The notes below the pieces were generated by a model that had not been told where the DNA came from, did not search any database, and worked only from the letters and a program-made list of their open reading frames with translations. Position numbers and translations under genes: made by a program. Shown in pieces: positions 15,994 to 21,442 of a stretch of DNA of 34,560 nucleotides; the stretch's first letter is position 1; every line of letters starts with the position of its first letter. This stretch comes from a virus. The DNA is taken from the IMG/VR virus record IMGVR_UViG_3300028392_000175, positions 1-34,560 of that record. One strand, given 5' to 3'.

Positions 15994-16023
15994 AAACCCC
16001 CGCCTTAACTGGCGGGGGTTTTT
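15994..16023 (+). terminator. Rho-independent terminator of the late operon
   Basis: AAACCCCCGCC (15994-16004) and GGCGGGGGTTT (16011-16021) form a perfect 11-base-pair stem with loop TTAACT, followed by a run of five T (16019-16023). It sits 22 bases after the holin stop and ends the structural and lysis transcript. Confidence 0.9.
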
Positions 16024-16138: not shown

Positions 16139-16169
16139 TTGCCAATCAATCATACCCATCTGCTATCTT
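16139..16169 (+). promoter_or_regulatory. Promoter of the replication operon, leaderless type
   Basis: TGCTATCTT (16161-16169) is an extended -10 of the form TGN-TANNNT. Six bases separate the hexamer from ATG 16176, so transcription should start at the start codon itself. A TTGCCA at 16139-16144 could be the -35, with a long 19-base spacer. No ribosome binding site precedes the ATG, consistent with a leaderless mRNA. The geometry is the same as at 7630. Confidence 0.65.
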
Positions 16170-16175
16170 TCATCT

Positions 16176-16370
16176 ATGAATCAAACAACAGTAGCTCACA
16201 GATCGTTTAGTAGTTTTTCCAGTTGGATTAGATGCGGCAAGTCATGGCAGTTGGAAAGAGACTTGGCTGCGCCAAGTGAACCAGCATGGTGGTTTGTCGG
16301 CGGTTCAGCATTTCATACTGCGGTAGAAAATTACCTATTGAAAGAATTTGCTGATGGCCAAGAAGCCTAA
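16176..16370 (+). CDS. N-terminal fragment of Cas4/RecB-like exonuclease (split gene)
   Basis: A 64-residue protein; the ATG at 16176 is chosen over an upstream TTG at 16125 because it fits the leaderless promoter. RSFSSFSSWIRCGKSWQLER followed by PAWWFVGGSAFHTAVENY is the start of the actinophage PD-(D/E)XK exonuclease family. C20 would be the first of four iron-sulfur cluster ligands, and GGSAFHTAVE includes the conserved motif-I His. The protein stops at 16370, while the remaining family motifs occur in another gene at 16765. In relatives as I recall them these parts form one chain. The two products could still assemble into one enzyme. Confidence 0.75.
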   Translation: MNQTTVAHRSFSSFSSWIRCGKSWQLERDLAAPSEPAWWFVGGSAFHTAVENYLLKEFADGQEA

Positions 16371-16581
16371 GCCAATTGCCAGTTTGTCAGTCCTTCACGG
16401 CGAGAAGGCAGACTACACTTCACTTGGATCAATTCGTGTCTGCCCATGTGGATCAGAAGTATTTCATTTGAAAGTAAAGTTCGATGAAGACAACACGATT
16501 GCAATGTATTTCTTAGATATGATCTGCGTTGATTGCACTAGCGCAGCACTAGCCCCAGTACCAGGAGTGGAATATGAATAG
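16354..16581 (+). CDS. Small zinc-ribbon-like protein inserted within split exonuclease
   Basis: A 75-residue protein starting at ATG 16354, overlapping the end of the exonuclease N-fragment by 17 bases. It has a CPCG motif (IRVCPCGSEVFHLKV) and a second pair in MICVDC, about 30 residues apart: a CxC/CxxC zinc-ribbon arrangement. Ends LAPVPGVEYE. Similar small zinc ribbons occur in actinophage replication modules. It may bind nucleic acid or partner with the split nuclease; neither is shown. Confidence 0.65.
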   Translation: MAKKPKPIASLSVLHGEKADYTSLGSIRVCPCGSEVFHLKVKFDEDNTIAMYFLDMICVDCTSAALAPVPGVEYE

Positions 16582-16768
16582 ACAGGATCGTCGCAAAGCA
16601 AACGTCGCTAACACCGACGCTTTTAGATCAGCATTTGTACAGGCAGAACTTGTTATGAGACAAGCTCTAGCCATTAGAATTGATAAAGCAATACAAGCAG
16701 AGACTAATCCTGATATAATCATTGGCTACGAGAAAGCACGAAAGATTGTGACAGGGGAAGTTGAATGA
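16574..16768 (+). CDS. Hypothetical helical protein inserted within split exonuclease
   Basis: A 64-residue protein, overlapping its neighbours on both sides (8 bases upstream, ATGA downstream). It begins MNRQDRRKAN and is helical throughout (FVQAELVMRQALAIRIDKAI), charged, without Cys. No family recognised. Its tight coupling to the exonuclease C-fragment gene indicates it is translated. Confidence 0.6.
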   Translation: MNRQDRRKANVANTDAFRSAFVQAELVMRQALAIRIDKAIQAETNPDIIIGYEKARKIVTGEVE

Positions 16769-17442
16769 TAGATACACAAGCCATATGGGATGAAGCCTTT
16801 TTAGCGCAGATAGCTGAGGTTGAGGCTAAGTCTGGCAGCAATCCAACTGATTGGCGCACAGGTGGACGTAAGACTAAAGATAACCCAGACAAAGAGAACA
16901 AAGCCTGGTGGGATGAGAACGGCAAGAAGATGCTGGATGATTTTATCCAGTCCTACAAGGCTAACAACTGGAAAGTCTGGGTAACACCGCAAGGTGTGCC
17001 AGGTATCGAACTTGGTATGACCTGTATGTTTGGCGATGTACCTATCAAAGCCTTCGTTGACTTGGTGTTTGAAAACCCAGACGGTTCACTTACCGTAGTT
17101 GATCTAAAGACTGGCGCACGTACACCAGACTCAAGCCTTCAGCTTGGTGTCTATGCTGCTTGTATTGAAATGACTTTTGGTATTCGCCCTCAGTATGGTG
17201 CATACTACAGCGCAAGAAGTGCTACGCTAGAACCTAGCGCTGGTATTGAAAGATGGACAGAGCCAGTACTTACCGAGATGTTTGCGCAGTTCCAGCGAGG
17301 ACTAGATGCGCAAATCTTTTTACCTAACATCGGTATGTCGTGTGGAACTTGCGGCGTAAAGGACTATTGTTATGCCATTGGCGGACAACTTGCACAGATT
17401 TATGACCCACTAGCAACCATAAAAGAAAAGGAAAGCAAATGA
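16765..17442 (+). CDS. C-terminal (catalytic) part of Cas4/RecB-like exonuclease
   Basis: A 225-residue protein carrying the PD-(D/E)XK core: E82 (GIELGM), D99 (KAFVDLVF), D113 and K115 (TVVDLKTG), then Q126 and Y130 (LQLGVYAAC). Three C-terminal cysteines, C193, C196 and C202 (SCGTCGVKDYC), are the usual last three ligands of the [4Fe-4S] cluster; the first lies on the separate N-fragment. WRTGGRKTKDNPDKENKAWW is also typical of the actinophage family. Role: processing DNA ends during recombination-dependent replication. N plus C fragments total 289 residues, close to the usual length of one-chain homologues. Confidence 0.8.
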   Translation: MIDTQAIWDEAFLAQIAEVEAKSGSNPTDWRTGGRKTKDNPDKENKAWWDENGKKMLDDFIQSYKANNWKVWVTPQGVPGIELGMTCMFGDVPIKAFVDLVFENPDGSLTVVDLKTGARTPDSSLQLGVYAACIEMTFGIRPQYGAYYSARSATLEPSAGIERWTEPVLTEMFAQFQRGLDAQIFLPNIGMSCGTCGVKDYCYAIGGQLAQIYDPLATIKEKESK

Positions 17443-17861
17443 GCGCATCACCTAGCACCAAGCTCCAAGTCAACTTCAAGTTGGCTGACGGCACTCTAGT
17501 AAACATCTATGCAGATAATGTACGTGAACTAGAAACATCACTTACTGACATCAGCATGGTATCAGCACTTATCAAATCAACATCTAATGATCTATCTGGT
17601 AGCCGAAGTGCAGCACCTACAGCAGCAGCTGTAGCACAGCAATTCAACGCAGCTGTAATTGAACAACCACCAGTTGCTTATCATCAAGCACCACCAGCAC
17701 AGACACCACCAGCGCAAACAGGTTCAGGTTACACCTGTAAGCATGGCGAGATGACATTCCGCCAGTCAAAGCCTGGCGCTCCGAAGGCATGGAAGGGTTA
17801 CTTCTGCCCTACCCCACAGGGTACAGCAGACCAGTGCGAACCTAAATTCTTGCGCGGATAA
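17439..17861 (+). CDS. Conserved phage protein with C-terminal Cys/His motif
   Basis: A 140-residue protein coupled by ATGA. The N-terminal domain (STKLQVNFKLADGTLVNIYAD) is beta-rich; a Pro/Ala/Gln linker (about 75-95) follows; the C-terminal domain has CKHGEMTF and GYFCPTPQGTADQCEPKFL with three Cys and one His, likely a zinc site. I have seen this end motif in actinophage proteins beside exonuclease and helicase genes. It may be a single-strand-binding or replication accessory protein; that is inference from linker design and neighbours. Confidence 0.65.
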   Translation: MSASPSTKLQVNFKLADGTLVNIYADNVRELETSLTDISMVSALIKSTSNDLSGSRSAAPTAAAVAQQFNAAVIEQPPVAYHQAPPAQTPPAQTGSGYTCKHGEMTFRQSKPGAPKAWKGYFCPTPQGTADQCEPKFLRG

Positions 17862-19842: not shown

Positions 19843-20027
19843 TGAACGAATCAGCTCGTAATAAATTAAGCGACGCCCCAATTGAAATTAATAATGAAGA
19901 AGCCTTAAAGGCAAGACTTGAAGACGCATGGAGAAAAGTTGACTTAAACGATAAAATAATTATTCGATTGGAAGCGCAAATAAAAGTACTTAAAGAGATT
20001 ATTAGTGAAGGTTTGCGCAGTTATTGA
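19842..20027 (+). CDS. Coiled-coil hypothetical protein
   Basis: A 61-residue protein starting at ATG 19842 in a TAATG overlap; an upstream GTG start is less likely. From about residue 20 it is a continuous charged helix with heptad-like leucines and isoleucines (IIIRLEAQIKVLKEIISEGL). Ends in a TGATG overlap with the primase zinc-domain gene. Function unknown. Confidence 0.65.
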   Translation: MNESARNKLSDAPIEINNEEALKARLEDAWRKVDLNDKIIIRLEAQIKVLKEIISEGLRSY

Positions 20028-20392
20028 TGGCAGATAAACCTGATCTTGGCGCAGTACTTGAAGCCTATGGCTGCGCAGTATCTCCTAGGTATGGGTGGGT
20101 AGCGTGTAAGTGCGTAGTCCATGAAGACTCACACGCATCAGCTGCCTACAACCTAGACATTCAGATGTATAACTGCTTGGTATGTAATTTACTAGGCGAT
20201 GTTTACGACCTAGTTAAAGCAAAAGAAAACTTGAAAGGATTCCCAGATGTTAAACGCAGAGCAGAGAAACTTGCTAACGGAAGCAGCCACAAGATACTCC
20301 GAACATCGAAACGAGGCGACAGCCTCATACCTATTGGGACGAGGAATAAGTCCAGCGGTGGCGGATTTGTACCAGCTTGGAAGCGTCGTTGA
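20027..20392 (+). CDS. Primase zinc-binding domain protein (part 1 of split primase)
   Basis: A 121-residue protein, start ATG 20027. C29 and H32 (CVVH) with C50 and C53 (CLVC) form the CHC2-type zinc site of DnaG-like primases, within ASAAYNLDIQMYNC and LGDVYDLVKA, both typical. The C-terminal 50 residues are basic and end FVPAWKRR. The last 146 bases overlap the start of the TOPRIM gene in another frame (+1 relative to this one). Actinophage primases are often encoded as two genes, so this may act with the next product. Confidence 0.8.
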   Translation: MADKPDLGAVLEAYGCAVSPRYGWVACKCVVHEDSHASAAYNLDIQMYNCLVCNLLGDVYDLVKAKENLKGFPDVKRRAEKLANGSSHKILRTSKRGDSLIPIGTRNKSSGGGFVPAWKRR

Positions 20393-20882
20393 TCCTAGCA
20401 TTGGACATGAGATGGCAGTTGGAATGTTATCTATTCCTTACCGTACTCCTGCTGGTATCAACGGGATTAAATTTCGCCGCATAGATAACGGCACACCTAA
20501 GTACCTTTGGCCTACTGGCCAGAAGATTGGACTGTTCAATGTCATGGATCTACATAAGTCCTCAGACACCATCGCAATCTGCGAAGGCGAGATTGATACG
20601 ATTGTGCTTAGCGGTCTTGTTGGTATTCCCGCTGTTGGCGTTGCTGGCGTCAGTCAATGGAAGCCTTGGTTTCCGAAACTCTTTGAATCGTATAACCGAA
20701 TTCTTATCTTCGCTGACAACGACGTCAAAGAAGACGGACGAAACCCAGGACAAGAGCTAGCCAAGCGAATTAAAGAGGACTTAAACACAGCAACAGTAGT
20801 CCACTTAGATGATAATAAAGATGTTAACGACACGTACCTAGAACATGGTTCCGCGTGGTTCGATGATAGACTGGCGGCATGA
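20247..20882 (+). CDS. Primase TOPRIM domain protein (part 2 of split primase)
   Basis: A 211-residue protein with the TOPRIM catalytic motifs: E113 in ICEGEIDTIV and the D157/D159 pair in IFADNDVKEDG, where metal ions bind. Preceding it, GMLSIPYRTPAGINGIKFRRI is the DnaG-type N-terminal catalytic subdomain. The frame is open only from 20235, so the ATG at 20247 is the only ATG start before the conserved region. It overlaps the zinc-domain gene by 146 bases. Synthesises RNA primers, probably together with the zinc protein. No helicase fusion is present. Confidence 0.8.
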   Translation: MLNAEQRNLLTEAATRYSEHRNEATASYLLGRGISPAVADLYQLGSVVDPSIGHEMAVGMLSIPYRTPAGINGIKFRRIDNGTPKYLWPTGQKIGLFNVMDLHKSSDTIAICEGEIDTIVLSGLVGIPAVGVAGVSQWKPWFPKLFESYNRILIFADNDVKEDGRNPGQELAKRIKEDLNTATVVHLDDNKDVNDTYLEHGSAWFDDRLAA

Positions 20883-21442
20883 CAACAGTAGTTGGACTAC
20901 AAGGCCCGAACTGGGCAGTAGTCGGAGCAGATACGCGAGTTGCTGAAGACTCTCGTATCTTCTCTATGCCAAAGGGAACTGGCAAGATCATACGCAAGGA
21001 AGGCTACATCGTAGCCCTAGCTGGTGACTTTAGACCAGCGCAGATATTTGCACACCAGTTTGACTTTCCCAAACCACCTGCTTATACAACCGTAGAGGCA
21101 CTAGATAAATTCATGACTGTAGATTTCCTTCCATTGGTGCAAGAGGCATACAAAGAAGTCGGTTATGAAGTAAAGAATGCAGAAGAAGGGACTGATCTAA
21201 TTGTCGCAACTCAAGGAACGATCTACAACGTTGGAGCTGATTCAACGTGGGCTAGAGATAGACGTGGAATCTATGCTATTGGAACTGGGAGCGCTTACGC
21301 CATCGGGGCTATCGCCGCGTTTGGTATCCCGAAAAGTGTTGACGATGCAGTTAGTATCGTCAAACAAGCGCTACACATTGCAACAGACTACGACAGTAAC
21401 TCAGGTCAACCAGTAATTATTCATCAACAGGTGCGAGCATGA
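20879..21442 (+). CDS. Proteasome/HslV-like Ntn-hydrolase
   Basis: A 187-residue protein beginning MTTVVGL. After loss of Met the N-terminal Thr1 would be the nucleophile, as in HslV. Counting from it, D17 lies in VVGADTR and the Lys of GTGKIIRK falls at 35, near the catalytic Lys33 of HslV; YIVALAGD matches the glycine-rich strand, and YAIGTGSAYAIGAIAA matches the G-S-G loop. The length is close to HslV (about 175). It could be a self-assembling protease ring that needs a host unfoldase, or a different amidohydrolase of this fold. No unfoldase gene is seen here. Confidence 0.75.
   Translation: MTTVVGLQGPNWAVVGADTRVAEDSRIFSMPKGTGKIIRKEGYIVALAGDFRPAQIFAHQFDFPKPPAYTTVEALDKFMTVDFLPLVQEAYKEVGYEVKNAEEGTDLIVATQGTIYNVGADSTWARDRRGIYAIGTGSAYAIGAIAAFGIPKSVDDAVSIVKQALHIATDYDSNSGQPVIIHQQVRA

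Follow-up and report, generated by a model that had tools for sequence, protein, structure and literature searches.

Does a Cas4/RecB-like nuclease gene that is divided between two open reading frames (ORFs), with two small genes lying between the parts, encode a working enzyme, and how did the gene come to be divided? These questions are raised by a locus in the window, the whole stretch of 34,560 nucleotides of viral DNA that was analyzed (IMG/VR record IMGVR_UViG_3300028392_000175). We compared this locus with related loci from viral contigs and phage genomes, including relatives in which the nuclease is a single chain. Our prediction from these comparisons, which we consider quite likely to be correct, is that the locus encodes a functional two-chain Cas4-like nuclease.

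Organization of the locus and assignment of the two halves

The four ORFs (N, ZR, HP, and C) are chained by overlaps of 17 nt (N/ZR), 8 nt (ZR/HP), and 4 nt (HP/C), and there are 394 nt between the N stop and the C start. These positions and overlaps agree with those in an earlier note on this DNA. The features of the locus are listed here; clade A, defined by having ZR and HP, and clade B, without them, are described below.

15997..16023, + strand: terminator-like G+C hairpin with a T run, closing the upstream (lysis) genes; sequence reading
16139..16144, + strand: -35-like TTGCCA; sequence and comparison of clade A upstream regions
16161..16169, + strand: extended -10 box, TGCTATCTT, 6 nt before the N start; comparison of clade A upstream regions
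16176..16370, + strand: N half of the Cas4/RecB-like nuclease, 64 aa; C20 (putative cluster ligand 1), H47 and E51 (motif I)
16354..16581, + strand: ZR, 75 aa; CPC...CxxC, zinc-ribbon-like by its cysteines; clade A only
16574..16768, + strand: HP, conserved small protein of 64 aa; clade A only
16765..17442, + strand: C half of the nuclease, 225 aa; D99, D113-x-K115, Q126xxxY130, C193, C196, C202

The earlier note calls HP a helical ORF. Together N and C have 289 aa, which fits the claim of the earlier note that their sum is about the length of a one-chain homologue (258-315 aa in the one-chain homologues examined).

C matched the Pfam family PF12705 (E 2.4e-10; 41.2 bits, cut-off 22), and N alone scored 12.6 bits, under this cut-off. 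The match of C to Cas4 proper (PF01930) was also under the cut-off, at 14.6 bits versus 22.7. In PHROGs, N matched positions 14-65 of phrog_1870 (2.3e-6) and C matched positions 74-305 (1e-41); N also matched phrog_69 (1.2e-12). N and C thus match successive stretches of a single nuclease family, and few positions of phrog_1870 are left over in between.

The motif I histidine, the motif II aspartate, the motif III D/E-x-K, and QxxxY are all present but divided, with H47 on N and the others on C. The cysteines follow the iron-staple pattern, with one N-terminal (C20, on N) and three C-terminal (C193, C196, and C202, on C). The residues C20, H47, and E51 in N, and D99, D113, K115, Q126, Y130, C193, C196, and C202 in C, show no variation in any row that has a letter aligned there (173-178 rows from 178 distinct loci). 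As the earlier note had claimed, the ligands of the putative metal cluster, assigned by sequence, are thus on two chains.

In the Cas4 protein SSO0001, the metal ligands are His62, Asp99, and Glu113, and the cluster is bound by four cysteines, one N-terminal and three C-terminal (PMC4176176). The same one-plus-three arrangement is described for Pcal_0546 and AddB (PMC4176176, PMC3466216). In SSO0001 and Pcal_0546 the four cysteines and the active site are in one chain, whereas here they are spread across two. Cysteine mutants of Pcal_0546 lost the cluster and kept activity (PMC4176176), so the metal cluster may be dispensable, and a Zn-bearing relative is on record (PMC3466216).

The split is present in all 178 related loci with both halves

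We searched viral contigs for relatives of the locus. With the window C protein as query there were 130 relatives, and the best 80 of 130 were kept. N was present as its own ORF upstream of C in 74 of these 80, with 365-835 nt from the N stop to the C start; in the remaining 6 the contig starts within 470 nt of C. We also used as query the C protein of phage ct2KA10, a GenBank record (OX376641) in which separate ORFs for N (61 aa) and C (202 aa) overlap by 17 nt with no insert. This search gave 305 relatives (best 80 of 305 kept). Searches with alignments of C and of ZR gave 231 and 141 relatives, respectively (best 80 of each kept). Two scans of a genome collection found no relative.

Pooling the kept results gave 178 loci that have both halves and are distinct (non-identical) over the N-to-C stretch. 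Only the best-ranked kept loci of each viral-contig search are included, and many are close relatives, not independent cases. Each half has its own ORF in 178 of the 178 loci, and the two form one ORF in none, so that relatives with the same split, for which the earlier note had proposed a search, do exist. Among the matches listed, there were also 17 loci with C and without N, in which the contig starts 527 nt or less from C. The consistency of the split, together with a -10 box placed 6 nt before N in 49 of 51 upstream regions (see below), indicates that the split in the window is not due to chance.

The 178 loci form two groups. Clade A (111 loci, including the window) has ZR and HP, and clade B (67 loci) does not. 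The C proteins of the two clades are 32-39% identical. N and C are directly overlapping or adjacent in 64 of the 67 clade B loci, and other genes are at the junction in the remaining three. Counted as distinct junctions, the N/C overlap is in the same relative frame at 60 of 63, and other genes are at 3 of 63.

From the phage records found, we picked eight (33-50 kb) and searched them for a second, full-length copy of the nuclease; none of the eight had one. A one-chain query gave exactly two matches in each record, at N and at C, indicating that no intact copy stands in for the split gene in these records. In two of the eight, the match at N runs past the N stop.

One-chain relatives and the position of the split

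Intact genes are readily detected by the same search method. With the one-chain nuclease of Rhodococcus phage RER2 as query, we found 18 loci, with 16 complete ORFs and 2 cut at a contig edge, and all 16 complete ORFs encode one chain of 258-269 aa. Annotated one-chain relatives include those of Propionibacterium phage PHL152M00 (315 aa) and Mycobacterium phage Archetta (271 aa). RER2 gp48, Archetta gp17, and PHL152M00 gp36 are Cas4-like exonucleases of actinobacteriophages (PF12705, PHROG 1870). The RER2-like proteins share with the split enzyme the motif I histidine, the aspartate, D-x-K, QxxxY, and the four cysteines, and the actinobacteriophage gene sits upstream of an annotated helicase, as it does here. 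The actinobacteriophage exonucleases are single chains of 258-315 aa, in contrast to the two chains here, which in clade A have genes between them.

We modeled the structure of a natural one-chain relative, L327 (pLDDT 89.9, pTM 0.86). The model has the PD-(D/E)XK fold, and the fold matches that of the Cas4/AddB/AdnA nucleases (SSO0001, Pcal_0546, and ACE1). Foldseek matches were ACE1 (6e-9), AdnA (8e-9), Cas4, SSO0001, MGME1, EXO5, and AddAB, with loose superpositions (TM 0.34-0.65). In the model, a helix at residues 34-51 carries the GSAVHEAAE motif and the next helix is at residues 58-79. The split C proteins start at L327 residues 58-61 in the alignment, which places the break, in this homologue model, within the six-residue loop that separates the two helices or immediately behind it. 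We propose that a cut at this loop would allow the halves to pack like the intact chain.

Modeled alone, the window C protein had a confident core, and its cysteine tail (residues 186-225) was below pLDDT 50, compared to pLDDT 80-83 for the same region of L327. The low confidence fits a tail that needs N, although the comparison is only suggestive because different alignments are behind the two models.

The split probably preceded the genes at the junction

The earlier note had described the nuclease gene as split by the two inserted genes. This view is not supported as it stands, since 64 of 67 clade B loci have the same split and no insert and the split therefore does not need one. Comparison of the two clades indicates that the gene was probably split first and that genes were inserted at the junction later, the reverse of the order proposed. 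In the alignment, the split points of clades A and B nearly coincide, which suggests that the split had a single origin.

A different history, which seems possible but somewhat unlikely, is that the two clades were split independently, with an intact gene in clade A broken by the ZR-HP pair itself. The phylogeny gives this history some support. The free tree needs 2 changes for the split and does not have clades A and B as a group; the long one-chain row L083 falls beside clade A, and the split rows are together in 6% of 200 bootstrap trees. The fixation of ZR and HP in clade A also favors it. On the other hand, a tree with the split rows as one clade is not rejected (AU p 0.28), the split points of the two clades nearly coincide, and clade B is an example of a stable split without an insert. 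We therefore prefer a single split that is old and common to the two phage clades, with genes probably added later at a junction that tolerates them. The clade A junction would then have gained the fixed ZR-HP pair and variable extra genes.

The junction accepts genes repeatedly

ZR and HP were present in all 111 clade A loci and found in 0 of the 67 clade B loci. It follows that they are unnecessary for the split and are not general requirements of the split enzyme. The order N-ZR-HP-C was found in 71 of 73 distinct loci recovered by ZR alone, and the other 2 are cut by contig ends. Additional genes vary in position. Taking extra sequence of >90 nt as a proxy for a further gene, we found none in 36 of the 111 clade A loci. 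Where it was present at one junction only, this was the one between ZR and HP (52 loci), between N and ZR (18), or between HP and C (2); another 3 loci had it at two junctions. The genes at the junction in the three clade B loci have no match to ZR or HP:

L121, 2045-2368 and 2361-3017: two genes, 107 aa and 218 aa
L149, 2688-3011: one gene, 107 aa
L155, 2661-3005: one gene, 114 aa

The proteins of 107-114 aa from these three loci look similar by eye. Because extra genes recur at the gap between N and C and both halves are kept, the gap appears to take up genes repeatedly.

ZR and HP of the window had no Pfam match at E values up to 1 and matched no PHROG family. There were only weak, scattered matches for ZR and HP relatives in PHROGs and for ZR relatives in Pfam. 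No endonuclease family was among the weak matches of 19 ZR members (Pfam and PHROGs) and 19 HP members (PHROGs), and so no homing endonuclease was detected in the gap, as judged by the window ZR and HP in Pfam and by the members scanned.

ZR and HP could nonetheless have a role in clade A. An obligate two-chain iron-staple nuclease can be envisioned in which assembly is the on-switch and ZR and HP, encoded between N and C in one leaderless operon, serve assembly or tether the enzyme; C20 on N and C193, C196, and C202 on C, together with a shared catalytic metal site, would make assembly such a switch. We regard this more elaborate arrangement as unlikely.

A proposed nuclease of the iron-staple type made as two polypeptides

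We infer that N and C assemble into one nuclease of the Cas4/RecB/AddB 'iron staple' type. N would supply C20, the first of the four cluster cysteines, and H47, the histidine of motif I, whose equivalent in Cas4 binds the catalytic metal or is proposed to do so. From C would come the lysine, the QxxxY residues, the rest of the acidic residues, and three more cysteines, and the two chains would be stapled to each other by the metal cluster. Presumably the enzyme acts in phage replication or recombination by trimming DNA ends, a role suggested by its place beside genes for a DnaB-like helicase, a primase, and a gp49-like protein.

The two halves might instead work apart: C alone could have nuclease activity, and N could have become a distinct factor, such as a regulator or decoy. 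The fact that N and C are separate ORFs in all 178 loci would fit this, as would the promoter-proximal start that N has for itself in clade A. We consider it improbable, since N retains exactly the motif I His/Glu and the cluster cysteine, C retains three cysteines that need a fourth, and C modeled alone leaves its cysteine tail at low confidence.

N and C are probably translated as two proteins

Comparison of 51 distinct clade A upstream regions revealed the box TGNTANNNT in 49 (0.35 in shuffles), with its end always exactly 6 nt upstream of the N start, and a -35 sequence with ≤2 mismatches in 32. There was no extended -10 box 6 nt before the C start in any of 51 clade A loci. N probably begins a leaderless mRNA, to judge from this spacing; leaderless mRNAs occur in actinobacteria. 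In the window, positions 16161-16178 are a sharp leaderless-promoter signature before the first ATG of the operon, as defined by the clade A comparison. Within the window alone, the pattern of extended -10 box plus ATG had 3 matches versus 1.7 expected, not above chance. In clade B, 49 of 49 distinct adjacent junctions have a C-frame ATG that lies 8-20 nt upstream of where the N stop ends. The clade A -10 box and the conserved clade B ATG together suggest two translated proteins.

We also considered the possibility that N and C are rejoined into one chain by a self-splicing intron, by ribosome bypassing, or, in clade B, by programmed +1 frameshifting. The shared relative frame of the overlap at 60 of 63 distinct clade B junctions could be read this way, and an intron would fit well in the clade A intervals, which span several hundred nt. 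Rejoining seems very improbable. No Rfam family was found at its gathering score in 18 loci (149 kb), and none of the 13 weak matches in the window stretch was an intron, which excludes a group I or group II intron in the gap as far as these scans extend. The clade A interval is full of ORFs, with ZR and HP under purifying selection and the further gene content variable. Programmed frameshifting in clade B was rejected based on the C start codons kept at all 49 adjacent junctions, the variation in the last N codons and stop across junctions, and the three loci in which other genes separate N from C, so that a frameshift could not join them. We thus favor separate translation of N and C.

All four proteins are under purifying selection

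We estimated dN/dS from usable pairs (dS 0.05-2); most clade A pairs were saturated in dS and were dropped. In clade A, the medians were 0.22 for N (69 of 171 pairs), 0.15 for C (60 of 171), 0.19 for ZR (44 of 136, leaving out rows L007, which has ambiguous bases, and L056), and 0.30 for HP (42 of 171). In clade B, they were 0.08 for N (31 of 66 pairs) and 0.11 for C (66 of 66). These values indicate purifying selection on N, ZR, HP, and C.

A decaying gene or an assembly artefact would account for a split ORF taken alone, and is now virtually excluded by medians well below 1 and by the recurrence of this split, which many metagenome contigs and the GenBank record OX376641 have in common. The earlier note had favored a functional split enzyme over decay, and the 178 distinct loci, the invariant motifs, and dN/dS medians of 0.08-0.30 bear this out; gene decay is ruled out by selection and by the breadth of the split.

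Comparison to other split phage genes

Split phage genes with working products have been described, including nrdA of phage Aeh1 (with mobE), genes 43A/43B of Aeromonas phages 25 and 44RR, and the T4 topoisomerase (PMC2988022). Each of these enzymes is likewise encoded as two chains, with a gene or a spacer in the gap, and in Aeromonas phage 25 the insert may postdate the split (PMC2988022). In the cases described there, the gap holds homing endonucleases or untranslated spacer (PMC2988022), whereas ZR and HP of the window match no Pfam family. The enzyme here also differs in being a Cas4-like nuclease, and in being split across two diverged clades. Among the matches listed in searches of the literature on split Cas4/RecB nucleases or split phage genes, this split was in no title or beginning of an abstract. 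One published method discards short or disrupted sequences (PMC5704561), and the word 'split' occurs 0 times in the main text of that paper.

Here a Cas4-like nuclease has been divided naturally, such that two chains would share the catalytic site as well as the structural metal cluster, and this arrangement has survived deep divergence (the clades are 32-39% identical). The function of the iron staple could be tested cleanly in such an enzyme: does cluster assembly hold two chains together, and does it switch activity? The halves could also provide natural split-nuclease parts for engineering. The series from one chain, to a split with overlap, to a split with inserted genes may help in understanding how phage genes break up and become insertion sites. 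An N half of 64 residues may be missed by annotation pipelines.

Neighboring genes

A homologue of gp49 of mycobacteriophages L5 and D29 (PF25690, 2.7e-6) is encoded at 17439-17861, between C and the DnaB-like helicase. It had no match to its neighbor in the Propionibacterium phage; the helicases of the window and of the Propionibacterium phage do match (27%). The primase also looks divided, with overlapping ORFs at 20024-20392 and 20247-20882 in different frames. Its CHC2-like zinc part matched PF01807 at 6e-5, just under the cut-off, and its Toprim part matched PF13362 at 5.6e-11. PHL152M00 likewise has two putative primase coding sequences. A 187-aa proteasome-subunit-like protein (PF00227, 1.9e-7) is encoded at 20879-21442, and a leaderless-type box at 20864-20881, within chance expectation, is directly before the ATG of this gene.
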